Positions 4,196 through 42,542 of a stretch of 64,000 bases of DNA are shown piece by piece. Position 1 is the first letter of the stretch. The number at the start of each line of letters is the position of its first letter. The notes under the pieces were generated by a model that saw only the letters and a list, made by a program, of their open reading frames with translations, was not told where the DNA came from and searched no databases. Source of the DNA: Henckelia pumila (lineage: Eukaryota > Streptophyta > Magnoliopsida > Lamiales > Gesneriaceae); assembly GCF_033568475.1 (NCBI RefSeq), contig NC_133122.1, forward strand, positions 167,612,130-167,676,129, in the 5' to 3' direction. Made by a program: the position numbers and the translations under genes.

Positions 4196-5509
4196 TGATA
4201 GTTGTGTTTGTGTTGCATATTTTAATGTCATTTTGTTGTTGTTTTGCATTCGTTTACGTGCTTTAATTATGTATTTTGACCGTATTGCATATTCTATGTC
4301 TGCATGATTTGTTTTCCCATTTTGTGTGAAGGTTGTGCGTTTTAGCGGATGCATGGATGGAACTATGGAGCAATGAAAGTGCTGACATTACTTTGAAGAA
4401 AGTGCTCGACCGATCTGCAGCATCTAGCCGATCGAGCGGAGCATGTAAATGTGAAGAAAGTAGGCTCTGGAATTCTTGACCGATCGATCGGTAACATCTT
4501 ACCGATCGAGCGAGAGGTGCTGTTCGGGAAAGAACTGTTAATTTTAGAAACTCTTTTATTTTGGACTCTAGCTTTTATTAGGCTTTTTATTCCGTTTTTC
4601 AGACTTAATTATCAGACTTGGATATTATATTTGGCGGCTAGGTTTTGTATTAAAATTTTCTCTCAAGATTTCATCCTTTCTTTTAATTTTTCTTGAATTT
4701 TTCATGAATTGTTGTGGCTAAGTTTTAGAACTTGGTTGAGGAAGACAAGCCCTTGATGTTATTTGTTCATGAGATTCTGTTTTCATGGTTTAATTTTTGT
4801 TGAGTATCAATAGTTGATCTGTTTTATTTCATGCTTGTATGTGAAATTTTTGGATTGGCCATCTTAGGATTTCGCTATACAAACTACAGCTAAATTAGAA
4901 TTCAAATCCATAATTTTTTGAATTAACTAATTTGCGAAGTAACTACGTTTAATATTTTTTGCTATTGAATTTGTTGAATCGTAGGAACAACTCTTGACTA
5001 GATTAAATACAATTACTGGTATTTGTGTTGTCTAGATTCATCAGTTTTACTCGTTTGAATGTTACCTTAAATTTAAATCTAGATCGCTGAAATCCGAGTT
5101 GATTTATTGGTAAGGGTTAATCTAGAATGCTGGTGTCTAATTAACTAAGATTAAGGTAAAAAATGAATTTGATTTTCAATGATAAATATTTGATAGGATT
5201 GATTATCTTTAGGAATCGATGATTGAATGAATAAATATCAAGGGTGTAGTCGACCGATACCAAGGCTTGTTTTTCAGTGAATTTTTCAGTTATAATTTAA
5301 TCTTGCATGATAGTTGTTAAGAATTGAATTAATTATTATTTTTAAAATTTTAGTAGTTAATCTCAAACTCAAAAATCCCTCTTATTTTATTTTTAAGAGC
5401 ACATTAAAATTTCCTTTCCACGTGGGAACGATTCCTACTCACACTACCACGTATTTTGGTTATCTGATTGAGTTGGGTAATTTGGGCGTGACGCGACTTA
5501 GTGCTACCA
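4196..5509 (+). mobile_element. 5' LTR of an Athila-type element (family X)
   Basis: Starts TGATAGTTGTG and ends GTGCTACCA immediately before a tRNA-Asp-type primer binding site. It is a relative of the inverted solo LTR at 44402-45874, sharing the start, a GTAGTCGACCGATACCAAGG-like segment and the terminal region before the PBS. Length is 1314 bp. It inserts into the family Z LTR, but the expected 5-bp duplication (TAAAG) is not found at the far end, and the 3' LTR at 19482 is of another family. Confidence 0.8.
4404..4511 (+). repeat. Two U3 inverted repeats at 74-bp spacing
   Basis: The first spans 4404-4437 (34 bp, outer arms GCTCGACCGAT and GCCGATCGAGC). The second ends at 4511 and contains perfect 10-bp arms CGATCGGTAA and TTACCGATCG with loop CATC (4485-4508). 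Their right ends are 74 bp apart, matching the period of related arrays at 19678, 45497 and 8902. Confidence 0.75.
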
Positions 5510-5514
5510 AATTT

Positions 5515-8738: not shown

Positions 8739-9248
8739 TTTGGGGAGACGAACAGTCAAGCTCTAGACTCTAAATTGAGAACTACTTGCTTATCTTTGCT
8801 TTATATTAATTTATTTTGCTTCAGAATTTTTACCCTTCTGTTATTTTAAGTTTTAGCAATTTTATTTTCGTTTATTTTTTTAAAAAAATTCGAAATGGGG
8901 TGCGCTCGGGCTGCGAAATTCTGCAGACCGAGCGCCCAAATATTCTTCAACTTACTGTGTTGCTAAAATGGGGGAGCGCTCGGTCTGCGAAATTCTACAG
9001 ACCGAGCGCGTAAGAATGCCCAACTCTCTGTTTTACTCAATCGGGGGTGCGCTCGGTCTGCGAAATTCTGCAGACCGAACGCATCGCGCAGATATAGAAA
9101 TTAAATATCCCGATCCCCTTTCCCCTTTCATTCTATTTCTTTCCTTCTCTCACCCTAAACCCTAAGCCCCTTTCATCTTCTTCTCAATCTCATTCTATCT
9201 CCTTTCAATCACAGGTAATCACCCACGATCTCTTACACCACGTTCACG
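8739..9248. other. Spacer between pol and env-like ORF, with inverted-repeat array
   Basis: Non-coding 510 bp. Three 34-bp inverted repeats lie at 8902-8935, 8976-9009 and 9049-9082 (period 74 and 73 bp), with arms GCGCTCGGTCTGC and GCAGACCGAGCGC and a short GAAATTCT-type centre. The 39-bp spacers also resemble each other. The array is inverted relative to the similar one in the LTR at 19678-19855, whose first hairpin has nearly the same arms. That links this internal region to the 3' LTR family. Confidence 0.85.
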
Positions 9249-10234
9249 ATGGGTCCAAAAAGAGCAAAGATCGCCACTTCCCGTGCTTCTTATTCATCCT
9301 CCACCATTATTGATGGGAAATTCATATCTGAAGAAGCCAAAGTGCGATTTGAAGCCGCCCGGATCAGCAAAAACACGATCCCTGAGAGAGGAATTGATCT
9401 AGGACCGGCCCATACCAATGCCCTAGGCATAGTTCAACGTGGCTGAACCAAATTCTGCCGCCAACCACCTGCCGTCGTCGTGACCTTGTTAAGGGAGTTT
9501 TACGCCAACACCCCAAAACGCACTGATAGCAAGGCTTTTGTCCGGGGTAAGTGGGTTCTTTTTGACCCCGACACGATTAACACTTTGTTGCAAACACCAG
9601 TGGTTGATGATAGCCAATTTTTGGAATTTAAGGCTCAACCCGATCTAAATCTTATCACTTTGGAATTGTGTTATGATGCTAATGTGTGGAAAGACCCAGT
9701 AAAGTTTTTGTCTTTTAAAGAAAAGTTTTTTCAAGTACACCCGGCTCTTTGGTACGCGTTTGTCACTCATCGTCTGATGTCCGTATCCCACACAAATGAT
9801 GTCGTGATAAGTCGGGCTTTATTGTTGTTTGCCTTGTATAAGCAATGGCCGCTCAATGTCTGCAAGATCATTAATAAGGAGTTATATAAGTCTATCCGCT
9901 CCCCCAACATCCGCATGTTCTTTCCATCCATTGTTACTTCCCTCTGTATTCAAGCGGGTGTTGTGGTTTGCGACGACGAGGAATGGCAGCACCCTATGCA
10001 GTCGGTCGACACTTCTATTCTGAAAACAAAAAGGGTGGTTCGGTTACAAGAGTTTACATCGCCTGGGCAGGCAAGTTTCGGGGCCGGTACATCTTCGAGG
10101 CATGTACCAAAACCAATTCCCAGTCGTCGCCTTGCTACCGAGACTACCAATGAATTGTTATGTCTGGGCTCAATATCAGAATGAGTTCCAAAACGTCACT
10201 TTTGCCCACTTGGAGTCACAGAATGCTATGCTTC
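9249..10234 (+). pseudogene. Athila env-like / putative plant transposon protein, 5' part
   Basis: The ORF downstream of integrase in Athila-type elements, often called env-like; its function is unknown. The frame starts MGPKRAKIATSRA (ATG 9249). A conserved core FYANTPKRTD then VRGKWVLFDPDTIN follows, and later VTHRLMSVSHTNDV (9762 onward) and RALLLFALYK, typical of the plant transposon-protein domain. No signal peptide or membrane segment is evident, so an envelope role is unsupported. Broken by TGA at 9444 and a frame change near 10150. The reading frame is interrupted at 10234 by an Athila insertion and resumes at 18276. Confidence 0.75.
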
Positions 10235-11625
10235 TGTTGTGAAAAATCCTCGCAAGCGTACGAGTGTCAAGTTTTAATATAGTGATAAAATCAAATATCG
10301 ATCCCACAAGGAGTAAAATGAAAATATTCAGTGCTTTTAATTAAAATAGTCCAAACTTTATCTAGAAAATCAATATTTTAGAGATTTGCATAAAAATAAA
10401 ATAATCAATGAGTTTAAAAGCACGCACACAACTTTCAGATAAATATCAATCAGAGAAAAATGGTCTAGAGGTATAGATTTCACCTGGTTTCAAAAACAAT
10501 CAATCCTAATTAATAAATCTTCATTAATTCCCGTCAATTAATAGCCAAGAACACTTAAGTATATTATTCCCTCTCCCAAGTGCCGAATAAAATATATCAA
10601 CTACAATTCAATTCCAATATCCCTATTAAGAATCTACTTGTAGTGATCAATTCAAAACAATGTTCTTTTTTTAAAAGCTCTGTTAAAATTATACACTCTC
10701 CTGAGCGATACAAATAATTAACAGTGTATTCTCTATTGGTCCTATTCAAAATCTCCTCTCCCGAATGCCAGATTTCAAATAAATATTACAAATCAATTAT
10801 TGATAAGATAATTGAAAAGACAATCAATTCTAGAAAAAACAATTAATCTAGAAGAAACTCAATTCAATAAAATAAAAAATTCATGAAAGTGTCTACACCA
10901 GGTTCCATCCCACCTCTAGACTCTAAAAAATTAGTTCATAATAAAATTCTAAATAAAACAAAACATGTTCAAAAATCCAAAAATATTCAGAATAAAATAA
11001 AAGATAAGAAACAAATCCGTCGTCGACGCCGTGTCCGGTCGATCGAACTCCGTCTTCGTTCTTCAAGTAAGCACAAAAATTCTTCACGATCACTTCTCAA
11101 ATATTTCTCTGATATGCGTGTATTTTGTGTGGCGTCTCTCTTGTCTGATGAAAATTTCCTTTTATATGGTCATGAAAAAGCCCACTCAAAAGCCCATGAA
11201 AATAATTTATTTCCTTTCCGATAAAAATTCCCAAAGTCAGATTTCGCGACGCGCGGGCGCTCCAAAATCCATGCGGGCGCGCATAGACTACTGCTTTTAA
11301 TTCTCACGCCTTCAGAAAGTAGTGCGTTAGCGCTTCCCTTTTCCTCATTAGCGCTTGAAGAAGCGCTAACCATTTGGCCCAAAAGAAGGCCCAATTACTT
11401 TCTCTTCTTATCTGATCGTTCTTTTCTTTCTTTTCTTCTCTAATTCCTCTTTTATTTTTATTTTCTTTTAATTTCTTTTTCTCACATAATTTTCTTCTTC
11501 TTCTACCAAATGTCCATAATTCCCTACGAACACAAAAACAACAAAACACCCACATAAATCTGCTCGAAACAAACAATTAACAATTAAAATCATATATAAA
11601 TTAAGTGTATAAAATACACTTATCA
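10235..11625 (-). repeat. 3' LTR of the nested Athila element
   Basis: On the - strand it starts TGATAAGTGTATTTTATACA and ends next to duplication GCTTC. A TATA-like CCATATAAAAGG lies near 11158-11169 (complement). Upstream of it is an inverted repeat at 11326-11370 (arms GTTAGCGCTTC and GAAGCGCTAAC) and a GCGC-rich block at 11251-11284. The LTR matches 16881-18270 over its length with a few percent of differences. Confidence 0.93.
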
Positions 11626-13539
11626 AATACTCCCAAACTTAGACTTTTGCTAGTCCCGAGCAAAACTATTAAAAACCAAATTCTAAAACTCATTCTCTCA
11701 AACCAACAAGAATAGCCAAGAAATATTACGGAGCAATGGCCTCAGCAATGATTTCAAAGAATTCAAATCCAATCCTATCCAACCTACTAACACTTGAAAG
11801 TTTTAATCATAACCAAAATAACCGCATAAACTCACAATATCCGCAACTCACGTTTCAAAACACCCTTATCCAAGTTCAATTCAAACATTCATAGATCAAG
11901 AGGACTTTTCAGGGTAGCAAAGGATCAAATATAGGATATAAAATCAAAAACACTCACAAATAGGTAAATGCAAAGAATAAGATTGTGTGCATTTTTCAAT
12001 CAAAATTCATAATCATTAAAAGTATCAATCAACAGTACATAGGCTAAATTCTCGCAACTCTTCTCCGCTAGTATATTGGGCAACTGAGACTCGATCAATA
12101 GGACTTAATCAGCTTATAATGTAATCCTGGCTTATGGCTACAAACGAAGGATAAGAATTCAAAATAAGGAATAAATGATGCTTAAACTCTAATCTCGACT
12201 CCTTTTCATTCACAATTTCACACTTATTTCTTTACTTCATTGATTTTTTCAACTTTCATCTTTTCAACTTCTTTCACAACTAATTTATTTTCACAACTTT
12301 TTCAAATCTTCCTTTTCTACTACCTCTTTTCATCTTTTCAATTCATCCACCACACCATTCCATTTTTCACAAATAAAACTAGGAGAATATAATATTTTAA
12401 CATTCAAATTACTCCCTTAAAGGTAGGAAATAATGTTTAGGCTATTCAGGTAGTCAATGTAGGACCTTGAAATAATGACGAATGGGGGTTTAATCACACG
12501 TTTACACGCATGTCATTCGATTTTCAATAAAGCTCAAACAAGGTACTAGGGATAAAATATATAATTAGGTAGCTTGAAAGGCTCAAACGAATTCAGAAAA
12601 ATCGCCTAAATTATTCCTAATCACAGTTTTTCCCGTATTTCGCCTCGAAGAGTGTTCGAACTAGTTCTAGACAAGTCTCAATCCATAATTAATTCATACA
12701 AAAATCAATCAGTGCAGAATAAGAATAATCATCAACAGTAAACGATGATTTTTAACAAATTTTCAGAATTTTCTTGTACCTCAATGTTCTCATATACGTG
12801 TAGGCTCAAATGGGCAACTAAGGATAAATAAATTCAATGAAAATTAGGCCCAAAAATTCAAACAATGCCTGAATCATCTCTATGTTTGTATGTCTCAAAA
12901 TTCAGATTCAAGTATTAATCACAGAGTATATAGGAAATTGTTCATCTAATTGGTTCTATTTTTTCAAAAAAATATTTGTCAGATAGGTGGACAATCATGG
13001 ATTTCAGTTATAGCACAAAAAATTTTTCTTTCATCAGCCATGCTTCCAATTCTTTCTCGACTTCTTTTCAATTCAACTCAACTCAACTAACAAAATTTTA
13101 TTCTCAACAAAAAAATTTTATCTATGAAGCACAATAAAACTCAACGAAACAACTATCAACCAACTAAATCAAACACTAATTCAAACACTAAATCAAACAT
13201 TGATTTACCCCCCAAAACTTAATGTAATCATTGTCTCTAATGATTAAAAACAATAAAGAACAATGGACTCATACCTTCAACACCGATCATCAGTACTCGA
13301 TGTCATCAAAATTTCCAGTAAAATAACTCGCAACCGCAAGACCATATGAGAGGTGAGAAGCGCAACATGAACGTCCAAATTAACCTGAAAAGAATACATG
13401 CACAGAATTAAGTCACAAAAATAAAACCAACGCAAACAAGATACAACGCTTAATGTATGGGAAAGAAGAGAGTGTGCTCGATGTCAAGCCCAAGAGAAGA
13501 TTCGATGGCCCATGAAAGTGAAGCCGTTGGAGCATGAAT
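11626..13539 (-). other. Non-coding 3' internal region of the nested Athila element
   Basis: About 1.9 kb without a credible ORF. It begins (on the - strand, adjacent to the LTR) with the polypurine tract. The TAGTCCCGAGC next to it (near 11651) is the complement of the GCTCGGGACTA also found before the LTRs at 24225 and 26955. The rest is AT-rich and CT-rich in patches. I did not find the CATCCGG block of the other Athila-type elements here. Confidence 0.7.
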
Positions 13540-14290
13540 GAGACGCCCTTCCTTAGTGCGATTGCGCTTGTATGTTGCTCGGTCCATGGCTGCGTAGTAT
13601 TAGTTTGCACTCTGCTGGGACATTTGCTTGAACAAGGAAGTGATTGCTAGTAAAGAGGCATCATGATCGCATGTACGGAGCAACTAGGAAAGCATGGAAA
13701 GCTTTTCTGTTCGTGTTGTTGTAGGTTGCTAGTTATCGCATAAAGGAGCAGCTGGTGATGTAAAAGCTTGTTCGCGCATGGTCTGCAACTGATGAGTGAA
13801 ATTGCGAAGCTTGCTGCGCTGTTGAGGATTTTTGGCGCAAGAGATTGGTGGAGCTGCGCGATCGCACAAGAGGTTGTGCAGATGGAAAATTGTTTGCGCA
13901 AGGGTGAAGGACTGTTAAGCGCGATAGCACTTGATTCAGTGCTAATGAGGAGAGGTACGCGCTATTTCTCTTGGATTTGCGCAGAAGAGGTTGGATAGGC
14001 GCGATTGCGCATGGAGTAATGCAGATGGGGTAATGGGAGCGCGATTGCGCTTAGTGGGGCGCAGATGGGAACTTGTTAGCGCATGGTTTAGGGAATGTGG
14101 CATGCGCGTTTGCGCTGAGGATGGCGCATATGAGGATGTTGTTTGCGCAAGGAAGAGCGCTGATGAGATTGCGCGTTTGCGCTAAGTGAAGCGCGGTTAG
14201 GGATCCTTTTGTTTGCGCAAGATTTTGCGCGGATGGTTGGCGCGATTGCGCTAGGGGAAGCGCAAAAGACATGGAATCAATGCGCAGAGG
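13540..14290 (-). repeat. GCGC-rich palindromic repeat island
   Basis: GCGCGATTGCGC, GCGCGTTTGCGC and variants occur about eight times (near 13557, 13854, 13918, 13999, 14039, 14103, 14171 and 14239), mixed with TTTGCGCAAG. Spacing is mostly 40-80 bp, often 64-68. Small open frames here are low-complexity shadows. The block lies between gag-pro and the polypurine tract, a position similar to the array at 8902-9082. Confidence 0.7.
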
Positions 14291-14484
14291 AGAGGCGGGC
14301 ACGGGATAGTTACGAGCGAGCGTGAATAAAGGTCTGCCAGAAGCTCTAAATTCCTGAAAAATTCAAAAATTTTATAATATCAAGCCTCCAATAATAATTC
14401 AAAAATCATAAATTAAATGATGAACAAAAATAAAAATTAAAGCAGAAATTGAATAAAATAGAAATAAATTAAAATACACAAAAA

Positions 14485-14534
14485 TTTTGGGTTGCCTCCC
14501 AAAAAGCGCTTGGTTTAGAGTCGTCAGCCCGACT
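14485..14534 (-). other. Conserved post-gag hairpin, AGGCAA loop
   Basis: On the - strand, AGTCGGGCTGA (complement of 14524-14534) is followed by TTTTGGGAGGCAACCCAAAA (complement of 14485-14504). The stem is 7 bp (TTTTGGG with CCCAAAA) and the loop AGGCAA. The same pair of boxes with other stem bases occurs near 23109, 25839 and 55734. It lies right after the gag-pro stop. Confidence 0.8.
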
Positions 14535-14544
14535 TTCACCAATC

Positions 14545-16750
14545 TTAGGTCTTCCCCTTAACTTTCACATGCCAAATAAATTCCACGAACCGCCATTTAA
14601 ATTTTGCTCTCTTTTTTGTGGCCTTCTTCGTTGGTAAATTCTGCGCTTCCAGCTTCTCAACCGGCTCAATCAAGCACAATTCCTCGATGGGTGGGCTAGA
14701 TGTCTTCATGAAGAATTTAAAAATCACTCGTTCGTACTCCACACCCATCGACAATTCCCCCTTCTTTACTTCAATTTTGGCATCCGCTGTGGCCAAGAAT
14801 GGTCTCCCAAAGATAAGTGGAGCACCATGATCCGCGTCAATGTCCAAAATTACAAATTCCGCTGGGAATATGAATTTATCCACCTTGACTAGCACATCTT
14901 TAACAATACCCAATGGATATGTGATGCTTCTATCCGCTAATTGCAATGAAATCATAGTCGATTTCATCTCTCCCAACTTTAAGGCCCTGTAAATAGACAA
15001 CGTCATTAAATTAATACTGGACCCTAAATCACATAGTGCAGTAGTAAAATGAGAACCACCAATAGAACAAGGAATAGTAAAACTCCCTGGATCTTTCAGC
15101 ATTTGTGGCACTTTCTTTTGTAGCACCGCACTGCACTCTTCAGTTAGATTCACCACCTCGTTCTCTAGCAGTCTCCTTTTCTTGGACATCATCTCCTTGA
15201 TGAACTTTGCATAATTTGGCATTTGCTCCAAAGAATCAGCAAAAGGGATGTTGATGTGAATTTTCTTGAAAATCTCCAAAAACTTGGAGAACTGCTCATC
15301 TAAAGCTTTCTTCTTCAACCTCTGCGGGTAGGGGAGTGGAGGCTTGTACATCGGTTTCGAGTCAGGTTTAGGCTCCTTCTCTTCGACTTTCTCCTCAAAT
15401 TTCTCCTCTTCAATAGCAGGTTCTTGGACTCCAACTTCTTTGCCACTCCTCAACTCAATGGCATTGCACTTGTCCTTGGGATTTACCTCTGTGTTGCTTG
15501 GGAATTGGCCGCGGTTGTTGTCTTTCAGTGCGTTCGCCAACTGCCCTATGCTAGTCTCCATGGAATGCAATACCGCGCCCATGTTGGCCATGTGCGTTTC
15601 CAAGCTGTCAAGGCGAGACTCAGTTCTCTCCATCCTCTTACCTGATTCCTGCACAAAGGTACTAACCACATCCTCCAAAGACAACTTACCATCACCCTTA
15701 TTAGTATTATTAGCATATGAAAAATTTTCATTATTCCGCAAACTAGGGTGATAAGCATTAGGAACCGGATTACCTTTGTAAGCTCCATAACCTCGGTAGC
15801 CAGTAGGATTGATATAATTGACTTCCTCTGGGCATGTGATCCTTCAAATCCAGTTGAATTTGCAACATTAATCTTATTCAAAGAAGCTTTCTGTGTAGTC
15901 AGTGCAGATAATTGAGCAGTGATGGATGTGAGAGGATCCACGGCATACACTCCAGCTGGCTTCTTGACTCCCATACGCTCAGATGGCCATTGGAAACTAT
16001 TGACTGTCATCTGCTCCAGCATATCATAGGCCTGTACAGGGTCCTTTGCAAAAATAGTTCCTCCAAAACCAGAATCCACGTTCATCCTTGTAGGCACGTT
16101 CAGTCCGTTGTAAAACCACTCGATCTGTTTCCAATCTGCAAAATTGTGGTTAGGACAACGTCTAAGTAATTCTTTGTACCTTTCCCACGCCTCGTATAGA
16201 TTTTCAATGTCCATCTGCCTGTAAGTGCTGATTCAATCTTCAACTGGGTGGACTTGGCAGGTAGAAAGTACTTTGCAAGAAATTTTTCTGCTATCCCCTC
16301 CCAAGTAGTGATTCTTCCTAGCGGCAGCGATTGCAACCAACTTCTGGCTTGATCCCTGAGAGAAAACGGAAACAAGCATAAGCGGATAATATCCTCAGAC
16401 ACAACATTAATTTTTACCGTATCGGTTATCTCCAAGAAAGTGCGTAGGTGTAGGTGAGGATCAGCAGTGGCGCTCCCATTAAATTTGTTCTGTTGAACCA
16501 TGTTGATCAAGGCCGTCTTTAGATCAAAATTATTTGCATTGATGGTTCCTCAAGCGATTACAGAATAGTGAACCTGGATCGTCGGTCGGAAGTGATCTCT
16601 GATTGGCACCAGGGAAGCTTGATTGACGTTCTCTTCATCCATTCTCTCAATTTCTTCTCTTCTAATTCTTCTTAAAGCACGTGCAGTGCGCTCGATCTTC
16701 GGATCAAAAATTAGAGAATTCGCACTTTGAGATCGTCGCATAGACTGCAA
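14545..16750 (-). pseudogene. Athila gag-protease
   Basis: Read from 16750 to 14545. The N-terminal part has MRRSQSANSL and the RRIRREEIERMDEENV helix. The capsid-like region (16510-16230) contains LFPFSLRDQARSWL, a gypsy Gag hallmark. A coiled-coil-like stretch (ESRLDSLETHMANMG) lies near 15620 and an acidic linker near 15390. The protease domain has active site DLGSS at about 15025 (DLG in place of DTG, as usual in Athila) and ends with LIFGRPFLATADAKI. Defects: TGA at 16550 and frame changes near 16220 and 15845. The last 398 codons are open. Stop at 14545; no pol follows. Confidence 0.9.
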
Positions 16751-16857
16751 TTAAAAATAAGAAGAAATTAATTAGTAACATAAAAATAAAATAAAAAGAA
16801 CTCTAAATTAAAATCTAGACTAATTGGTAACAAGACTAAAAAATAATCAAAATTTAC

Positions 16858-16875
16858 TTCCCGGCAACGGCGCCA
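16858..16875 (-). other. Primer binding site (tRNA-Asp type)
   Basis: On the - strand TGGCGCCGTTGCCGGGAA, 5 bp from the LTR end, matches the complement of plant tRNA-Asp 3' end over 16 bases. Confidence 0.85.
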
Positions 16876-16880
16876 AAAAC

Positions 16881-18270
16881 TGGTTGTGAAAAATCCTCGC
16901 AAGCGTACGAGTGTAAAGTTTTAATATAGTGATAAAATCATATATCGATCCCACATGGAGTAAAATGAAAATATTCAGTGCTTGTAATTAAAATAGGCCA
17001 AACTTTATCTAGAAAATCAATATTTTAGAGATTTGCATAAAAATAAAATAATCAATGAGTTTAAAAGCACGCATACAACTTTCAGATAAATATCAATCAG
17101 ATAAAAATGATCTAGAGGTATAGATTTCACCTGTTTCAACAACAATCAATCCTAATTAATTAATATTCATGAATTCCAATCAATTAATACCAAGAACACT
17201 TAAGTGTATTATTCCCTCTCCCGAGTGCCGAATAAAATATATCAACTATAATTCAATTCCAATATCCCTATTAAGAATCTACTTGCAGTGATCAATTCAA
17301 TACAATGTTTTTTTTTTAAAAGCTCTGTTAAAATTATACACTCTCCTGAGCGATGTAAATAATTAACAGTGTATTCTCTATTGGTCCTATTCAAAATCTC
17401 CTCTCCCGAGTGCCAGATTTCAAATAAATATTACAAATCTATTATTGATCAGATAATTGAAAAGACAATAAATTCTAGAAAAAAAAATTAATCTAGAAGA
17501 AACTCAATTCAATAAAATAAAAAATTCATGAAAGTGTCTACACCAGGTTCCATCCCACCTCTAGACTCTAAAAAATTAGTTCATAATAAAATTCTGAATA
17601 AAACAAAACATGTTCAAAAATCCAAACATATTCAGAATAAAATAAAAGATAAGAAACAAATCCGTCATCGACGTCGTGTCCGGTCGATCGAACTCCGTCT
17701 TCGTTCTTCAAGTAAGCACAGAAATTCTTCACGATCACTTCTCAAATATTTCTCTGATATGCGTGTATTTTGTGTGGCGGCTCTCTTGTCTGATAAAAAT
17801 TTCCTTATATATGGTCATGAAAAATCCCACTCAAAAGCCCATGAAAATAATTTATTTCCTTTCCGATAAAAATTCCCAAAGTCAGATTTCGCGATGCGCG
17901 GGCGCTCCAAAATTCAAGCAGGCGCGCATAGACTACTGCTTTCAATTCTCACGCCTTCAGAATGTAGCGTGTTAGCGCTTCCCTTTTCCTCATTAGCGCT
18001 TGAAGAAGCGCTAACCATTTGGCCCAAAAGAAGGCCCAATTACTTTCTCTTCTTATCTGATCGTTCTTTTCTTTCTTTTCTTCTCTAATTCCTCTTTTCT
18101 TTTTATTTTCTTTTAATTTATTTTTCTCACACACTTTTCTTCTTCTTCCACCAAATGTCCATAATTCCCTACGAACACAAAAACAACAAAACACCCACAT
18201 AAATCTGCTCGAAACAAACAATTAACAATTAAAATCATATATAAATTAAGTGTATAAAATTCACTTATCA
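16881..18270 (-). repeat. 5' LTR of the nested Athila element
   Basis: Matches 10235-11625 along its length (1390 bp). It carries the same U3 inverted repeat at 17971-18015. Its outer end is followed by duplication GCTTC at 18271-18275. Confidence 0.93.
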
Positions 18271-18427: not shown

Positions 18428-19481
18428 TCAAGGGAGTTTTTTTTAGTTTTATTTTGTTTTATTTAGTGTGTGTTTTGCATCATAAGTTCTGTTTGTTTTT
18501 CTCCATGCTTTTAAGTTTGTTTTTAGTTTCTTTAGCATTGGGGACCATGCTTGTTTTGAGGTTGGGGAGGGTGTTTGCGTTGAAGTTTTTCTTGGTTAAT
18601 GTTTAGTGTTTGCATTTTCACTTTTGTTTGCATTGTGTGTTGAGTGAGACGATGAATGGGGGCTGATGATGATTCGAAATTGTGAATTTTGAAAAAAAAT
18701 AAATAAATTTGTGTGTGGTGCTCTTGATTTGACATGAAAAACTGTAGGTTGACCCGTGAATAGTTTAAGCACTCATGTTAGACCAATGGATTGTAACGAA
18801 ATATTTGATGAAATTTTTGTCTTTTTGACCATTGCACAGCAATAGGTGGTTTGTGGATCTTAATTGTGTTCTATGAATTTTGACGAGCTGCTAGCATGAC
18901 ACTTAAGATCTTGGGCGCACCTAAAAAAAATAAAAAAAATTTACAACTCCATTCGGGCCTTGAAAGGATTGAAATCCTAAAATATTAAATTCAAGGCTAA
19001 GTATGCGGATAAAATGGGGTTGATGCTCCATCCGGGCTATAAAAAAAAGAAAAATTTCATATCCTAAGCCAGTTATAGCTAAGTCAGTGGGTAATTATTG
19101 GGGCTAAAGCAATACCAGGTGTAAAATCCGGAAGTGTGTAATTCCTTATCTCAAGGGAGGTGGGTGTGTCTAGAGTCGTTAGAAGGAATGGACACTTGAG
19201 AGTGAAACTTGCACTGATTTGTTATAGGTCGCTAAGCAGATTTGAAATGGATTCTGTCTGAGTTGTATGAAACTGGAATAAAATTTCACACACACACGTT
19301 CACGTTAAACCGAAGGTATATTATGAAAACTTAAGAGCAATGGTATTTTTGTGTTCTGTTGTGAAGGAATTTCTCGGAGGCCATGAATTCTCATGAATCG
19401 TCTTACTCGCTTTTGTGTTTGCATTTTAGTTATCACCTGTTTTGATCAGGGAGAGCAAAAGGTTAGTTTGGGGATCGAGGT
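18428..19481 (+). other. 3' non-coding region of the chimeric Athila element
   Basis: No gene. Includes a TTTAGTTT-rich start, then the CATCCGG/ATTGAAATCC block (18941-19145) that recurs at 23727, 26457 and 56447. It ends with a polypurine-like AGTTTGGGGATCGAGG just before the LTR at 19482. Confidence 0.75.
18941..19145 (+). repeat. CATCCGG/ATTGAAATCC block, copy A
   Basis: Contains CTCCATTCGGGCCTTGAAAG, GATTGAAATCCTAA, GCGGATAAAATGGGGTTGAT, GCTCCATCCGGGCTATA and AGTTATAGCTAAG in that order. The same order occurs in copies B, C and D. Confidence 0.85.
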
Positions 19482-20872
19482 TGATAGGAGTCATTTTTCC
19501 CGTGTTTTATTACTTATTTTCTTTGTGTTTGGCATGCGTTCCATGTTGTCATGTTCGTTTTTATCCATTTCTTGTTGCATTTTAGTGTATTTCTGTGTGT
19601 TTTGTTCACTCCTATTGATTTATGGTTAATTTGGCAGGAAAATAGAAAAATCATAATTTTGGGAATCATAAGGAGGTGCGCTCGGTCTGCAGGATTTAGC
19701 AGACCGAGCACAGGCATACTAAGGAGAGGCAGAAAGTTGAAAGAAATTGGGCGCCCGAGCGGTAGAAAAGAGCCGCTCGAGCGCGTGCTCGAGATGCAAG
19801 GCAGAAAGCTAGTGGAATTCCCAGCGCCCAAGCGGTAGAAAAGCCGCTCGGGCGCTCCCGCGTAATTATGGAAATTATTATTCCGGGAGTTTTATTTGGA
19901 AAGGACTCTGAGGGGCACTATATATAGGATATTTTCAGACGTCTAAAGGGTTGGATACACAGAGAATTGAGGCGGAGGCGGCTGCTGAAGATTGAAGACT
20001 TCTTCTTCTCGTTGGGATTTTTTCTTCTTCAAAATTACTAGATTTTTATGTTGGAAACTTTGTTAGCTTGAATTTTATGATGAATTGTAGTAGCTATACT
20101 TTTATTTTGTTGGAATTTAGGGGATCTGAACCCCAAAACACGTATGTGTGATTGAACTTTTTGGACGAATTGAGTTTGATTTATACTAGTATTTGATTTT
20201 ATCATGGTTTATTATTCTATGTTGAGGAGTAGCTAACTCTAGCATAGATTCGTAGGTTGTGAATTGCTGTCGAGAGATATATTCATGATTAGGATGAGTT
20301 ATAAAATCCATGGACTTAAAATATGCATAGAGATATTATATTTAGTACATGTTGATAACCATAGACCAACAAGTTGAAAGTTATAGGAATTCAAAGAACG
20401 TCAAGCAATCAGTAATGATAAATAATTAAAGAGATTTTATTGTTTCATTAACTTGAATTAGATTGGCATAAACTCGAGAGAAAGTATCGATACTTCAGGA
20501 ATTTCTGTCAAATCTATGTGTATTAAATTAAGATTCAATCGTCCAGCTCAATTAGGGGGAAGGTGAATCGAAATTCCAACAAAATCCTTTCATATTATCT
20601 TTCTCAATCTTGAAAAGTTCGGTTCATAATATGCATTAATTTTAGTTATTTAAGTTGAATTCATTAGTCACAAATTTTAGTTACAATTAATCATCAAACT
20701 TTCGTTACTTTGGGTAGAGAAATAAGATAATTGAGTTATTGTGACGTAGTCCCTGAGGACGATACTTGTACTCCGTACAATTTTCTATAACTTAAGTCGT
20801 GCACTTGCGATAATATTGATCATAAAAAAGAGATAATTATATTAATTTTAAGTGTTGGTATTTGTTCGATCA
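19482..20872 (+). mobile_element. 3' LTR, Athila-type (family Y)
   Basis: Starts TGATAGGAGTCA after a purine tract and ends at a CA near 20872 where Tekay gag begins. The 1391 bp length equals the nested Athila LTRs. TATA-like TATATATA at 19919. It carries a three-unit inverted-repeat array (19678-19855). It does not resemble the LTR at 4196-5509 beyond general layout. The right boundary is inferred from where Tekay sequence starts. Confidence 0.75.
19678..19855 (+). promoter_or_regulatory. Three-unit inverted-repeat array in LTR U3
   Basis: Inverted repeats start at 19678, 19751 and 19824, exactly 73 bp apart. Arms: GCGCTCGGTCTGC with GCAGACCGAGCAC; GCGCCCGAGCGG with CCGCTCGAGCGC; GCGCCCAAGCGG with CCGCTCGGGCGC. 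The two intervening spacers share AGGCAGAAAG. The array ends about 65 bp before the TATA box. Confidence 0.9.
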
Positions 20873-21495: not shown

Positions 21496-22883
21496 TGATA
21501 AGTGCAATTTATGCACTTAATTTATATATGATTTGACATGGATTTTGTGATGTATCAAGTAGATATTATGAGTATTTGTTGTTGTTTTTGTGAGATGGAA
21601 GGATTGGAAGAAAAGTAGCAAGAAGAAGCAAAAAAGATGAAATACGCAGCAGAAACTTCAGAACATTACTGGGAAAGTTTGAAACTTCCAAAACAAATCT
21701 CTACCATTCAAAGTTTAGGATATTTTGAAGCTACTGTCAAAATTTCAGCTCAATCTGATGATTAGATTGTGAGATATGAATTTTTGAAAATTGTCGCGCG
21801 CTGCAGAATATCACATGCGAGAGGCATGCATGCCCTCACCCTACTACTGAGTGCCCGCGCGTCGCGATTCCAGATTTGCATAGTCTTATTTTGGAAGGAA
21901 ACTTTGGAATATTTATGGGCTTTCTTTGACGGGCTTCGAGGACATATAAAAAAAATTTGTTATGCACAATAGAGAGGAGCAGCCGCCGCACAACTTAGAC
22001 AGAAAAATTGGGAGTTAAGCGTGAGAATTGGGAAGAGAAATCTGGACAAGAACTTGAAGAAATTGAAGAACAAAGACGAAGATCGATCGACTGGACCTGT
22101 CGTCAAATACTCGGATTTGTTTTTCATCCTTTAAAACTTATTATTATTGATTTGATGTCTAGTTTCATGAACATGACTTGGTTTTATTTATTTTTGATCA
22201 TTAACTAAATTTTATTAGTCTAGATATTGACGTAGCATGGAGTAGACACTTCTACAACTTTTTATTTTTACTGGATTTAATTTCTCCTAGATTAATTGTT
22301 TTTCTAGATTGATTGTATTTTCAATTAATTGATCACTAATTGATTTGTTATATTTATTTGAAATCATTGCTCGGGAGAGGGAATTTTGAATAGGACCAAT
22401 AGAAATTACACCGTTAATTGTTTATATAGCTTGGGAGAGTATATAACATTAATGGAGCCTTAGGAAGAACATAGTTTTTAATATATCACTAAGACTAAAT
22501 TTTTAATAGGGATATTGGAATTGAATATTAGTTGATGCACGAAAATAATACAATTTTGGGGTTATTGGCTATTAATTGAATAGAATTCATGAAAATAATT
22601 TAATAAGGAATAGTTGTTGTCGAAACCAGGTGAAATCAAAACCTTTAGACCATTTTCTCTCATTGATATTTTCTGAAGTTATGTGTGCACTTTGCTAAAA
22701 TTTTCTGATTTTATTTAAGTTGAAAACCAAAAATATTTATTTAATTTTCTATATAAAGTTAAGACTATTTTAATTACAAGTACTAAATAATTTTCAATAT
22801 TACTCCATGTGGAATCGACACTCTATTCATCACTTTATTAAAACATGACACCATGCAATTTGCGGGCACAAAAATACGCAACA
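21496..22883 (+). repeat. First LTR of the tandem element
   Basis: 1388 bp from TGATAAGTG to GCAACA. TATA-like TATAAAAA at 21945, preceded by a GC-rich patch with GTCGCGCGCTGCAG near 21795. A diverged PBS, TGGCGTCGTTTCGGGGA, begins at 22890. Confidence 0.92.
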
Positions 22884-23078
22884 AGTTTTTGGCGTCGTTT
22901 CGGGGATTGGTTCAATTTATTGTGTAGTAATACTGTACCAAGTGATCTTGATTTTGATTTAGAATTATTATTTTTTATTGTCTATTTATTATTATCATTA
23001 TTTTTTGGATTAATTTATTTTGTTTTATCTATGTCTGTATTTTATTCACAGATCTTAAAGTTTTGTAAGTGCGGACGC

Positions 23079-23126
23079 AGTCGGGCTGAGGCTATATACT
23101 ATGTGCTGCTTGGGAGGCAACCCAAG
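23079..23126 (+). other. Conserved AGGCAA-loop hairpin
   Basis: AGTCGGGCTGA followed 19 bp later by CTTGGGAGGCAACCCAAG: a 6-bp stem (CTTGGG with CCCAAG) closing the AGGCAA loop. Confidence 0.85.
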
Positions 23127-23726
23127 AGTTTCAGTATTATTTATTTATTTTGTTTATTTAATTTTTATGTATTTACTTCTTAAATTTGTCCCTTGTCAAT
23201 TTTTTTTATAGGATGTGTGGAGATGAAGTTTGGTGGTGTTACCCCCACTATACCCCAATGTGCTGCAAATGACGATGAAAAGGATGACGATTACGGATGG
23301 TCGTTGTCACCGGTACGTGCATTCCTATTCATTTCATTTGTGTTTTTTTTGTACATTGAGGACAATGCATAATTTAAGTTTGGGGTGTTTAAAAATTTTG
23401 AAAATTTTTAAAATTTTTGATGAGTTAGTTTGAGTTAGCATGATGTGTAATTGTGTTGACCTATGATGAAAATAATTTTTTGTGTCAAAATGTCAATGTT
23501 AACTATATTTAATCTTGAGTTATCGCAAAATTGCACTATGCCTTGATTGTTTAGACCCTAGTGATTAGAGAAGTTTTGTGATTTTGTGAGTGGATCGGAT
23601 TATTCGATTCTTAACTTTGATTTATACTTGAAACCGAGGTAGACTTCTACAAGCTTAGAAATGATTTATTGAATTCATTGAGTAGCTAAAAATTTGAAAA
23701 AGCAATAGAGGGGAAAAAAAATTTAA

Positions 23727-23925
23727 CAACTCCATCCGGTCCTGGAAAGGGATTGAAATCCTAATCACAAATCCATGGATAATTTTGCGGATAAAATGGG
23801 GTTGATGCTCCATCCGGACTATAGACGAGGGGATTGAAATCCGAATCCTATCTTTAGTTATAGCTAAGTTTGAGGATAATTTATGGGGATAAAATAAAAC
23901 TAGGTGCAAAATACGGCATTATTAA
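23727..23925 (+). repeat. CATCCGG/ATTGAAATCC block, copy B
   Basis: CTCCATCCGGTCCTGGAAAG, GATTGAAATCCTAATC, GCGGATAAAATGGGG, TGATGCTCCATCCGGACTAT, GATTGAAATCCGAATCC and AGTTATAGCTAAG in the same order as copy A. Confidence 0.88.
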
Positions 23926-24224
23926 AAAGCTTTGATATACCTTGAAAATTCTTTTTGATCTTAGTGAGTTGAAGTTCCACTTGGTAGAGAGTGTTTTAAA
24001 AGTTGAGAGCGGAATTGATGAATCTATGAAACAAACTTGTTGCATTAGTGTATCGAAAGCGAGGAGGATATATAGACAAGATTGGAAAATCACACACACA
24101 CGAGAACTATTGAGAAAATTAGAGGACATGTGTATGGAATCTTGGACTATGAAACTCAGAGGTCGATTACATTACTCGTTATTGTTTAGCTCGGGACTAG
24201 CAAAAGTCTAAGTTTGGGGGAATT

Positions 24225-25613
24225 TGATAAATTCAATTTATGCATTTAATTTATATATGATTTGACATGGAATTTGTGATGTATCGAGTATATATTATGC
24301 GTATTTGTTGTTGTTTTTGTGAGATGCAAGGATTGGAAGAAAAGTAGCAAGAAGAAGCGGAAAGATGAAATACGGAGCAGCAACTTCAGAAAATTACTGG
24401 GAATGTTTGAGACATCCAAATCCAATATCATCATTCATAATGAATTTTAGGATGTTTTGAAGCTGCTGTCAAAATTTTAGTTCGATCCTACGATTAGATT
24501 TTGAGATATTAATATTTTAAAATTGTCGTGCGCTGCAAAATAGCACATGCGAGAGGCATGCGCACCCACGCCCTTCTACTGAGCACCCGCGCGTCGCGAT
24601 TCCAGATTTGCATAGTCTTATTTTGGAAGGAAACTTTGGAATATTTATGGGCTTTCTTTGACGGGCTTTGAGGACATATAAAAGGGAATTGTTATGCACA
24701 ATAGAGAGGAGCAGCTGCCGCACAACTTAGACAGAAAAATTGGGAGTTAAGCATGAGAATTGGGAAGAGAAATCTGGACAAGAACTTGAAGAAATTGAAG
24801 AACAAAGACGAAGATCGATCGACTGGACACATTGTCAAGTACTCGGATTTGTTTTTCATCCTTTTAAACTTATTATTATTGATTTGATGTCTAGTTTCAT
24901 GAACATGATTTGGTTTTATTTATTTTTGATCATTAACTAAATTTTATTAGTCTAGATATTGACGTAGCATGGAGTAGACACTTCTACAACTTTTTTATTT
25001 TTTTGGATTTAATTTCTCATAGATTAATTGTTTTTCTAGATTGATTGTATTTTCAATTAATTGATCACTAATTGATTTGTTATATTTATTTGAAATCATT
25101 GCTCGGGAGAGGGGATTTTGAATAGGACCAATAGAAATTACACCGTTAATTGTTTATATAGCTCGGGAGAGTATATAACATTAATGGAGCCTTAGGAAGA
25201 ACATAGTTTTTAATATATCACTAAGACTAAATTTTTAATAGGGATATTGGAATTGAATATTAGTTGATGCACGAAAATAATACAATTAAGTGTTATTGGC
25301 TATTAATTGAAAAGAATTCATGAAAATAATTTAATAATGAGTAGTTGTTGTCGAAACCAGGTGAAATCAAAACCTCTAGACCATTTTCTCTCATTGATAT
25401 TTTTTGAAGTTATGTGTGCGCTTTGCTAAAATTTTCTGATTTTATTTAAGTTGAAAACCAAAAATATTTATTTAATTTTCTATATAAAGTTTAGACTATT
25501 TTAATTACAATTACTAGATAATTTTCAATATTACTCCACGTGGAATCGACACTCTATTCATCACTTTATTAAAACATGACACCATGCACTTGCGGGCACA
25601 AAAATATGCAACA
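24225..25613 (+). repeat. Middle LTR of the tandem element
   Basis: 1389 bp from TGATAAATTC to GCAACA, directly abutting the polypurine tract on the left and a PBS on the right. TATA-like TATAAAAG at 24677. No target duplication flanks it, so it is shared by both internal units and is not a separate insertion. Confidence 0.92.
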
Positions 25614-26954
25614 AGTTTTTGGCGTCGTTTCGGGGATTGGTTCAATTTATTGTGCAGTAATACTGTACCAAGTGATCTTGATTTTGATTTAGAATTATTA
25701 TTTTTTATTGTCTATTTATTATTATCATTATTTTTTGGATTAATTTATTTTGTTTTATCTATGTCTGTAGTTTATTCACAGATCTTAAAGTTTTGTAAGT
25801 GCGGACGCAGTCGGGCTGAGGCTATATACTATGTGCTGCTTGGGAGGCAACCCAAGAGTTTAAGTATTATTTATTTATTTTGTTTATTTAATTTTTATGT
25901 ATTTACTTCTTAAATTTTTCCCTTGTCAATTTTTTTTATAGGATGTGTGGAGATGAAGTTTAGTGGTGTAACCCCCACTATACCCCAATGTGTTGCAAAT
26001 GACGATGAAAAGGATGACGATTACTGATGGTCGTTGTCACCGGTACGTGCATTCCTATTCATTTCATTTGTTTTTTTTTGTACATTGAGGACAATGCATA
26101 ATTTAAGTTTGGGGTGTTTAAAAATTTTGAAAATTTTTAAAATTTTTGATGAGTTAGTTTGAGTTAGCATGATGTGTAATTGTGTTGACCAATGATGAAA
26201 ATAATTTTTTGTGTCAAAATGTCAATGTTAACTATATTTAATCTTGAGTTATCGCAAAATTGCACTATGCCTTGATTGTTTAGACCCTAGTGATTAGAGA
26301 AGTTTTGTGATTTTGTGAGTGGATCGGATTATTCGATTCTTAACTTTGATTTATACTTGAAACCGAGGTAGACTTCTACAAGCTTAGAAATGATTTATTG
26401 AATTCATTGAGTAGCTAAAAATTTGAAAAAGCAATAGAGGGAACAAAAATTTTTAACAACTCCATCCGGTCCTGGAAAGGGATTGAAATCCTAATCACAA
26501 ATCCATGGATAATTTTGCGGATAAAATGGGGTTGATGCTCCATCCGGACTATAGACGAGGAGATTGAAATCCGAATCCTATCTTTAGTTATAGCTAAGTT
26601 TGAGGATAATTTATGGGGATAAAATAAAACTAGGTGCAAAATACGGCATTATTAAAAATCTTTGATATACCTTGAAAATTCTTTTTGATCTTAGTGAGTT
26701 GAAGTTCCACTTGGTAGAGAGTGTTTTAAAAGTTGAGAGCGGAATTGATGAATCTATGAAACAAACTTGTTGCATTAGTGTATCGAAAGCGAGGAGGATA
26801 TATAGACAAGATTGGCAAATCACACACACACGAGAACTATTGAGAAAATTAGAGGACATGTGTATGGAATCTTGGACTATGAAACTCAGAGGTCGATTAC
26901 ATTACTCGTTATTGTTTAGCTCGGGACTAGCAAAAGTCTAAGTTTGGGGGAATT
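25614..26954 (+). other. Second internal region of the tandem element
   Basis: 1341 bp, about 99% like 22884-24224. Carries the AGTCGGGCTGA box (25809-25819), hairpin (25839-25856), CATCCGG block (26457-26655) and polypurine tract (26941-26950). Confidence 0.9.
26457..26655 (+). repeat. CATCCGG/ATTGAAATCC block, copy C
   Basis: Nearly identical to copy B, with one or two substitutions (for example GAGGAGATTG for GAGGGGATTG). Confidence 0.88.
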
Positions 26955-28363
26955 TGATAAATTCAATTTATGCACTTAATTTATATATGATTTGACATGG
27001 ATTTTGTGATGTATCGAGTATATATTTTGCGTATTTGTTGTTGTTTTTGTGAGATGCAAGGATTGAAAGAAAAGTAGCAAGAAGAAGCGGATAGATGAAA
27101 TACGGAGCAGCAACTTCAGAAAATTACTCGGAATGTTTGAGACATCCAAATCCAATCTCATCATTCATAATGAATTTTAGGATGTTTTGAAGCTGCTGTC
27201 AAAATTTTAGTTCGATCCTACGATTAGATTTTGAGATATTAATATTTTAAAAGTGTCGCGCGCTGCAAAATAGCACATGCGAGAGGCATGCACGCCCATG
27301 CCCTTCTACTGAGCGCTCGCGCGTCGCGATTCTGGATTTTCATAATTTGATTTTGGAAGGAAACTTTGTAATATTTACGGGCTTTATTTGATGGGCTTCG
27401 AGGACATATAAAAAGGAATTGTTATGCACGATAAAGAGGAGCAGCCGCCGCACAACTTAGACAGAAAAATTGGGAGTTGAGCATGAGAATTGGGAAGAGA
27501 AATCTGGACAAGAACTTGAAGAAATTGAATAACAAAGACGAAGATCGATCGGCTGGACATGACGTCGAATATTCGGATTTGTTTTCATCCTTTTGAACTT
27601 ATTATTATTGATTTGATGTCTAGTTTCATGAACATGATTTGGTTTTATTTATTTTTGATCATTAACTAAATTTTATTACTCTAGAAGTTGACGTAACCTG
27701 GTGTAGATACTTCTACAACTTTTGATTTTTATTGTATTGAATTTCTCCTAGATTAATTGTTTTTCTAGATTTGATTGTCTTTTCAATTAATTGATCACTA
27801 ATTGATTTATTATATTTATTTGAAATCATTGCTCGGGAGAGAGGATTTTGAATAGGACCAATAAATATTAAACCGTTAATTGTTTATATAGCTTGGGAGA
27901 GTATATAACATTAATGGAGCCTTAGGAAGAACATCGTTTTTCATATATCACTAAGACTAGATTTTTAATTGGGATATTGGAATTGAATCTTAGTTGATAC
28001 ACATTATTTGTTGCTCGGGAGAGGGAAATAATACAATTAAGTGTTCTTGGCTATTAATTGAATAAAATTCATGAAAATAATTTAATTACGATTATTTGTT
28101 GTAGAAACCAGGTGAAATCAAAACCTCTAGACCATTTTCTCTCATTGATATTTTCTAAAGTTTTGTGTGCGCTTTGCTAAAATTTTCTGAATTTATTTAA
28201 TTTGAAAACCAAAAATATTTATTTAATTTTTTAGATAAAGTTAAACTATTTTAATTACAAGTACTAAATAATTTTCAATACTACTTCTCGTGGGATCGAC
28301 ACTCTACTCATCACTTTATTAAAACATGACACCATGCACTTGCGGGCATAAAAATATGCAACA
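26955..28363 (+). repeat. Third LTR of the tandem element
   Basis: 1409 bp from TGATAAATTC to GCAACA, followed by GTGAG. It is the most diverged of the three, with an extra CTCGGGAGAGG-like segment near 28015. Confidence 0.92.
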
Positions 28364-41075: not shown

Positions 41076-42542
41076 TGATGAGTGAATTTTGTATGCATTA
41101 GTTTGTGATAGGTTTATTTCTATTTTGTGTGCATTCATATTGTTTTTATGTGTTTTTATGTGTTTTAGTGCATGCTTGTGTATTTCACTCTCCGGGTTAA
41201 TTTTGTAGGAAAATGGATTTATGAAGAATGAATTACAGAGCAGCCTTGGTCAAAAATTCAAATTTATTTTTATAGACGCCTAAATCCGATCTCCAACGTT
41301 CATAATAAATTTCAAGATTTTTTAAAGCTGCTTTCCAAATTTCAGCTTGATCCGACAACTAGAACTCAAGATATGAATTTTTCAAAATTGTCGTGCGGAG
41401 CAAAAAAATCCACTCGCTCGAGCGAGACTTGTGCTCGCTCAAGCGAGCGAGACGTACCAAAAATATTCCGAGACAAAAAGTTGCTCGCTCGAGCGAGCGA
41501 AGCAAGCCTAGAAATCCTTCGGAACAGAGTCATGCTCGCTCGAGCGAGACATGTGCTCGCTTGAGCGAGCGGAGCGTGCAGAATTTGTATTTTTGGAAAC
41601 TCTTGCTCAGATTGGATGCTATCTTTTGAAGACCCTTGGGCATATAAATACAAATCTAATCATCAGATTAAAGGATTCCAACACGCAGAGAACGCAGAGG
41701 GCGGCTACTACAACTTGGGAGAGAAGATTTCTTGTTTCTTCTTCTTTTCTTATTTTTATTTTTAGTTCATGATTAAAACATTGTTTGAATCATGATTTTG
41801 GTTCGTGAGTAGTTTTTCTTTCGATCAAGGCCATGTGATGGGGCCAGACAAATTTATGTAGAAAATTTGGATGTTTGTTTGAGATTTTTTAGACTTGATT
41901 TTATTTTATTGATTATCAGATTTATATTTTTCTTGTGAATAGCCTAATCAACTGTTTGCTTGCATGTTAATCGATTCCAAGTCGACGAAGGAGGTTTCGA
42001 TTTCGATCACTTTAATAATCAACATATTGTAAAATCGACTAGAAATAGAATTCAATTTCAATGTGCGGTTTAGGTATTTACGGAATTCTCACAGTTACTC
42101 ATGCATTCAAATTTGATTAGAATTACGAAAGATTAATCCGTCAATATTTGAATAGGTTTGATTGTTCTAGAAATAGTCCTTTGAACAAATTAGGAGAATT
42201 CCCGCGAATTAAGATTAAATCTGAGTCTTGAATCGACTACTTGTTACATAATTTGTCTAGTACCTACGTGTGTCCTTGATCGAGCTTTTCCCAAATTGAG
42301 TTTTAATCCAAAATCTTTGCTGCGTTTTTACTGAGTTGAATTTTATTTGTTATTTAATTTCTTAGTTTAAAATCTGAAATCACTCTTATTCATTAGTCTA
42401 GATTAAGTAGGAATAATAATATTTTGGTATTTATAATTATACAGTCCATGTGGGTTCGACATCTGGACTTTTGTCCACTTTATTATTACATTACCTGGTA
42501 CGCTTTCCAATAGATTCTTAATCATACCGATTTAAGCGGTCA
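41076..42542 (+). repeat. 5' LTR of the Athila element
   Basis: Matches 57081-58524 along its length. TATA-like TATAAATA at 41643-41650. Upstream lies the inverted-repeat array 41413-41570. Confidence 0.92.
41413..41570 (+). promoter_or_regulatory. GCTCGCTCGAGCGAG palindrome array in LTR U3
   Basis: Three sites: a double palindrome at 41413-41448, a single GCTCGCTCGAGCGAGC at 41483-41498, and a double at 41533-41569. The matching 3' LTR has single, double (57465-57501) and single at the same sites. The array ends about 75 bp before the TATA box. Confidence 0.85.

Follow-up and report, generated by a model that had tools for sequence, protein, structure and literature searches.

The 64 000 nucleotide stretch of the Henckelia pumila genome analysed here (the window) contains long terminal repeats (LTRs) in which palindromic sequences recur at a regular distance, and the question that it raises is what these arrays are, which elements carry them and what keeps them symmetric. 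The original prediction described them as sets of inverted repeats in Athila-type families, possibly platforms for transcription or silencing factors or cruciform-forming DNA. The observation is confirmed in the main, with the corrections given below, whereas the first interpretation is partly supported. Four contigs of 183–234 Mb make up most of the 885 Mb genome of the window, and all array results refer to this one genome.

Palindrome arrays in the window

The inverted repeats are real, and more numerous than first noted: the window holds five arrays and one decayed sister copy, the array at 8902–9082 having been overlooked. A scan with 13-base arms returned 17 dyads with at least 10 of 13 pairs and at least 50% GC (a limit chosen once the units had been seen), 13 of which lie inside the described arrays, compared with 0–3 per run in 30 first-order Markov simulations of the window. 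Without the GC limit, 64 dyads were found, where 20 simulations averaged 33.2.

The family A LTR (19479–20869, + strand; extent defined by its match with L055) carries the three units foreseen at 19678, 19751 and 19824, with centres 73 and 72 bp apart. P1 (19678–19711, +) has GGTC-type arms, P2 (19751–19784, +) has GAGC-type arms and P3 (19824–19855, +) is inverted in place in the nearest relatives. The first spacer contains the motif GGCAGAAAGTT (19728–19738, +) and the second GGCAGAAAGCT (19800–19810, +), whereas TATATATAGG (19919–19928, +) lies ∼80 bp downstream of the P3 centre. A TATATA sequence stands ∼78–81 bp past the last dyad centre in 27 of the 28 fetched family A copies, the exception being L025.

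Family X/E (LTR at 4200–5513) carries two dyads, at 4406–4439 and 4480–4513 (+), and the pair expected at this LTR is borne out at 74 bp, as judged from the window copy alone. Ahead of it, at 3706–3974, there is a direct repeat with an offset of ∼97 bp that contains GTGTAGTGTGGGGCCGGGAGACATCTC. On self-comparison, the X/E and family A LTRs flank gag-pol and have no mutual match; the internal region at 7967–10232 matches the element L056, which ends in a family A LTR, and another element is nested at 10236–18270, between the two LTRs. The X/E LTR, gag-pol and family A LTR thus represent either two elements or a chimera.

Family C was expected to have three sites. Two of these are full units 122 bp apart (41413–41447, composed of two self-palindromic halves, and 41534–41570, both +), whereas the middle one (41484–41498, +) is a half unit, as it is in 21 of 22 aligned copies (20 fetched and two in the window). 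The outer units are likewise halved or cut short in several of the 22 copies. A strict three-unit period was not found in this family, the 72–73 bp step occurring only across intact units. The sister copy has a full middle dyad (57463–57503, +) with half units on either side. The units of this family, seen in the window at 41413–41570 and 57419–57553, consist of two self-palindromic halves, and different copies lack different single halves, apparently by deletion between the two; the family either functions with half units or has decayed. The sequence TATAAATA (41643–41650, +) is found downstream of the family C array in the window, 91 bp past the last dyad centre.

The family D array lies on the − strand, with P1 at 45651–45684, P2 at 45570–45603 and P3 at 45497–45530. 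Its three units are present as predicted, with centres 73 and 81 bp apart, but the longer interval is a peculiarity of the window copy, which alone among 21 aligned copies has a 6-bp insertion. Besides the window copy, 39 places were scored and 20 of them fetched; all three units were called in 17 of these, at 75 and 73–74 bp; two have a single 148-bp interval with the middle unit under threshold, and in one a single unit was called.

Elsewhere in the window, a segment of ∼4.1 kb (21496–25613) is repeated at 24225–28363 (94.7% identity) with a third related end at 26955, which looks like an LTR-internal-LTR-internal-LTR arrangement (21496–28363). Two very GC-rich inverted repeats of the form CGGGC..GCCCG, 49 bp apart and not of the GCGCTCG type, occur at 53444–53520, and just past them the repeat at 53641–55489 pairs with 46158–48006 around a copia-type polymerase.

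A 34 bp unit at a fixed period

The pattern GCGCTCG-N15–25-CGAGCGC has 6752 matches in the window's own genome (884.7 Mb), compared with 184 for the reversed pattern, and among the matches listed the dyad is exactly 34 bp long in 44 of 50 places. The search pattern fixes the outer seven bases of each arm, and the inner bases provide an open test of pairing. Across 36 distinct 34-mers, arm pairs 8–13 are complementary in 172 of 216 cells, whereas 5000 half-versus-half shuffles, which ignore kinship between copies, averaged 129.8 and reached 161 at most; at pairs 14–17, complementarity falls below expectation. The unit is therefore 34 bp long, consisting of 13 paired, 8 unpaired and 13 paired positions.

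Adjacent dyads (CGAGCGC-N26–56-GCGCTCG) number 4334 in the whole genome against 138 in the control. Four gap lengths, equivalent to a period of 73–76 bp, account for 3567 of these 4334 pairs (82%) and for 28 in the control, where an even spread over the 31 gap lengths would place 13% in any four, and the ∼73-bp module of the original prediction is borne out on this scale. Both the dyad and the pair counts require perfect outer arms, and decayed units are therefore left out. Among the matches listed, the period is 73–76 bp in 48 of 50 adjacent pairs.

The 61 arrays in the fetched loci, grouped by masked flanks and spacers, form 11 groups. Spacings are mainly 73–75 bp in eight of these, with single odd values of 49, 54.5, 69 and 81 bp, whereas three groups, each a single array, have spacings of 58, 63 and 64.5 bp. 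Arrays comprise two to four units. Half-steps of 37–38 bp occur in two arrays of the second largest group; the dyad steps in L072 and L073 are 38, 37 and 74 bp, with an extra palindrome occupying the spacer position. Arm types vary by family (GATC, GGTC and GAGC), which bears out that arms differ between families, with complementarity largely kept. The commonest arm bases in 98 oriented units are GCGCTCG..CGAGCGC, including families that were found by DNA similarity rather than by the pattern.

A motif at the spacer midpoint

The spacers were expected to resemble each other within and between families, and they do so through a AGGCAGAAAG-like motif at their midpoint (consensus by eye ∼RRCAGWRRGTT). 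CAG or CTG stands ≤2 bp from the exact middle in 27 of 37 non-redundant spacers, drawn from 101 spacers of 38–42 bp, compared with a mean of 4.3 and a maximum of 13 of 37 in 2000 shuffles; attention had been drawn to the motif by these same data before it was counted. The other 10 of the 37 spacers have no centred CAG. Within family A the motif windows are less variable than the remaining spacer (0.139 and 0.143 versus 0.251 and 0.199), whereas the family D motif windows show no lower variation (0.141 and 0.188 versus 0.121 and 0.208).

Arrays in a second Ty3/gypsy lineage

Sampling by perfect outer arms, without regard to family, gave 38 arrays in a stretch of C1 (0.25–5.6 Mb). The largest group comprises 20 of these, in some cases both LTRs of a single element, and, to the extent that it could be assigned, represents another Ty3/gypsy lineage. 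Its LTRs end in GGTCTCACA, followed, where a 5′ LTR is in view, by the primer-binding site TTAAGTGGTATCAGAG, which we take to be of the initiator-Met type; the lineage is presumably chromovirus-like. The name Athila for the window families is likewise our assumption, taken over from the original prediction and from the primer site. The carrier L061 encodes Retrotrans_gag, Ty3_capsid, RVP_2, RVT_1, RT_RNaseH and Integrase_H2C2 (gag, protease, reverse transcriptase, RNase H and integrase), and in this one second-lineage carrier scanned for domains there is no copia-type RVT_2. A module confined to Athila was rejected on account of arrays in LTRs that end in this way.

In 14 of the 20 grouped arrays the LTR-end motif could be located; it lies 116–137 bp from the last dyad centre (208 bp in one), and in all 14 the mid-spacer motif points toward the LTR 3′ end. 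The array lies ∼160–216 bp ahead of the primer-binding site in the five arrays where that site was found. Neither TATATA nor TATAAATA occurs between the array and the LTR end in L060–L063, and the second-lineage array may therefore lie within the transcribed R-U5 region. A conserved TATATA up to ∼800 bp upstream of the array was sought as well and was seen in L063, but not in L061 or L062. A position just upstream of a TATA box was shown for families A and C, but not for the second lineage or family D.

An internal array before an extra open reading frame

The overlooked array consists of dyads at 8902–8935, 8976–9009 and 9049–9082, assigned to the − strand by their midpoint CAG motif. It sits between the end of pol and an extra open reading frame (9447–10184, +) that matches PF20167 (Transposase_32) in a Pfam scan; the window element has an RT_RNaseH domain as well. 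An array also precedes the PF20167 frame in L044, and L056 combines an internal array with a family A LTR array in one element. The mid-spacer motif is antisense to the PF20167 frame in all three (window, L044 and L056).

Beyond these elements, 20 PF20167 hits were hand-picked among the matches listed, from a genome search in which the best 150 of 5990 first-look candidates were scored, and none of the 20 has dyads in the 700-bp stretch ending 150 bp upstream, a span into which the window's own internal dyads fall. These hits do not support a general role of the internal array in promoting the PF20167 frame, and it is limited to some families. The same count bears on the idea that the arrays are a platform for an element-encoded anti-silencing protein, by analogy with VANC of the VANDAL transposons. 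Family-specific arm types are what such a protein might be expected to meet, and L056, with arrays both in its LTR and before the extra frame, would fit as well; yet the module is common to lineages with different primer sites and stands upstream of 0 of the 20 checked hits, and we consider this explanation very improbable.

In-place flips of palindromes and copying between units

Of the 27 family A copies compared, 7 (L002–L007 and L009) have an in-place inversion of P3. The window copy (L001) has P3 in the forward orientation and falls in a clade with the inverted copies L002 and L007 (support 93/98, in a palindrome-masked tree whose deeper forks are unsettled), so that its P3 has probably flipped back. 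Both arms have changed, from GGTC/GACC to GAGC/GCTC, in the inverted copies and in the window copy. P3 accordingly contains 18 double-change cells, matched by 0 of 2000 shuffles, and P2 contains 6, matched by 33 of 2000, although the cells of both units stem from few independent events. Covariation in family A P1 and in family D P1 and P2 is not above shuffles, so that clean compensatory evolution in every unit was not found. Family D P3 has 13 double-change cells (matched by 26 of 2000 shuffles), an excess that appears to come from one row, probably L112, shifted by a 1-bp gap together with trimming.

Palindromes are, in addition, copied between neighbouring units. In family D, the window copy is the only one of 21 compared whose P3 is of the usual P2 type, and P2 is of the P3 type in 7 of the 20 other copies; the family D spacers stay distinct despite this copying. 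Across 22 arrays of at least three units outside family A, within-array likeness is 0.84 for palindromes and 0.54 for spacers, with palindromes compared in both orientations and spacers in one, and the direction is the same in 22 of 22.

Flips and copying that affect the palindromes and not the spacers suggest template switching, for which reverse transcription would offer ample chance, and which would keep the arms symmetric while causing the flips. As the palindromes flip and copy between units, arm symmetry is no proof of structural selection. In the excerpted text of PMC8794818, loop inversion together with multiple, simultaneous compensatory changes in stems is described as a footprint of template switching, and family A P3 shows a footprint of this kind. 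The arrays could on these grounds be a mutational by-product, in which palindromes arise and are mended by template switching, become tandem through slippage and spread with the elements, with no protein to read them. The in-place P3 inversions, with a forward L001 inside the L002/L007 clade, and the unit-to-unit copying of family D would fit such a process. It does not account for a period and a midpoint motif that are kept even where within-array spacers are so little alike, nor for arrays that are oriented alike relative to the LTR in two lineages, and complete loop inversions are very rare in the rRNA data of that source, in the portion consulted. We therefore judge a by-product without a reader to be improbable.

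Folded structure versus recognition of duplex DNA

The palindromes might instead act in a folded state, as RNA hairpins of the U3 region or 5′ leader (in small RNA production or RNA handling) or as DNA cruciforms. As RNA, the family A array folds at −87.6 kcal/mol against a shuffle mean of −65.9 kcal/mol (z = −4.72; 0 of 200 shuffles as good), although this would be expected of any such palindromes. The double-change cells of family A P3 and P2 agree with a folded state, and the short distance of the second-lineage array from the primer-binding site would make it possibly part of a leader RNA. Mismatches over all 13 pairs, in 98 distinct oriented units, comprise 64 G-U and 48 A-C (family A: 55 and 44). 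The G-U excess lies at the innermost pairs, many of them common by descent, and a hand count from the table for the outer ten pairs of the same units gives 21 G-U versus 32 A-C. Selection for an RNA hairpin should spare G-U over A-C, so the outer-arm mismatches lend the hairpin no support, and selection through G-U tolerance was rejected. Further evidence against a folded state comes from family A P1 and family D P1 and P2, which show no excess covariation, and from the location of the array relative to the LTR, which differs between lineages; a structure, moreover, would need neither a fixed 74-bp period nor a centred, stranded spacer motif. Taken together, we regard a role of the folded palindromes as unlikely.

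DISCUSSION

The arrays combine a constant geometry with a midpoint motif, are oriented with the LTR in two Ty3/gypsy lineages and precede the TATA box in two families, and their palindromes flip in place and are copied from unit to unit. The reading that we favour, at about an even chance of being right and on the strength of sequence comparison, is that they represent a portable, oriented promoter module of LTR retrotransposons that is read by putative binding proteins. The 34-bp dyad, with its two 13-bp half-sites and 8-bp AT-rich centre, would bind a dimeric sequence-specific protein, and a second factor would bind the CAG motif midway between dyads. A period of ∼74 bp corresponds to about seven helical turns and would place successive dyads on one face of the DNA, and the array might then assemble a single complex, activating or anti-silencing, immediately 5′ of the start site. 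Alternatively, the arrays may serve as a silencing platform.

Several observations count against a promoter module, namely the antisense internal arrays, the result for the 20 PF20167 hits, the second-lineage copies L060–L063 with neither TATATA nor TATAAATA, the family D motif windows, the family C halves, the 10 of 37 spacers that lack the centred motif and the 3 of 11 groups with spacings of 58–64.5 bp. A further proposal, which we put forward as doubtful, is that a cassette of fixed geometry has passed between Ty3/gypsy lineages and that its arms are a recognition code tracking the binding protein or proteins, with template switching supplying symmetric changes in single steps; arm types that change in concert, on both sides of a dyad and between units, would be read in the same tentative way.

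LTR promoters are usually too variable to be compared between families, whereas the present arrays retain a single geometry in thousands of copies despite change in much of their sequence, which makes the parts that matter readable and testable. If the promoter module is real, cis-regulatory modules, and not only genes, would be shared between retrotransposon lineages. The arrays also supply numerous natural instances in which palindromes flip or are copied from unit to unit, a process inferred from RNA genes in the excerpted text of PMC8794818.

Among the matches listed in a literature search (titles and abstract openings), there is no description of palindromes recurring as a periodic module in LTRs of Athila or of other Ty3/gypsy elements. 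The likeness to loxP-like sites of tyrosine recombinases, which are 34 bp long with a 13-8-13 layout and an asymmetric centre, is one of geometry only, the sites here coming in sets at ∼74 bp. The specificity of VANC proteins differs between VANDAL families. Like the factors proposed here, these sequence-specific proteins act on non-coding stretches of transposons; VANDALs, however, are DNA transposons with a known binding protein, and the excerpts of PMC5735166 and PMC10398659 do not state a comparable palindrome or period. The template-switch system of PMC8794818, in the part consulted, concerns RNA genes, whereas the palindromes here belong to retrotransposon promoters and are in addition copied between neighbouring units.

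The closest known system, on the portion of PMC2829016 consulted, is the set of RM boxes of Sirevirus (Ty1/copia) elements, palindromic sequences that cluster in the LTR shortly before the TATA box within non-coding regions that are otherwise very divergent. Further boxes precede the env-like gene, and a regulatory role was proposed for them (PMC2829016). Families A and C share with them the repeated symmetric boxes a short way 5′ of a TATA box. For boxes before an extra gene the picture here is mixed, as arrays precede the PF20167 frame in the window, L044 and L056 and none of the 20 checked PF20167 hits. The Sirevirus boxes are 11–17 bp long, with 8 or 9 copies in two table rows, and in the rows covered all except Tnd-1 have a CGG-CCG core (PMC2829016), which is not the core that makes the palindromes here. 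The carrier in the present case is Ty3/gypsy, the unit is a 34-bp GCGCTCG..CGAGCGC dyad in two to four copies, and a strict ∼74-bp period is combined with a midpoint motif. The module described here is thus not of the Sirevirus family, but by analogy it may well work as the Sirevirus boxes do.
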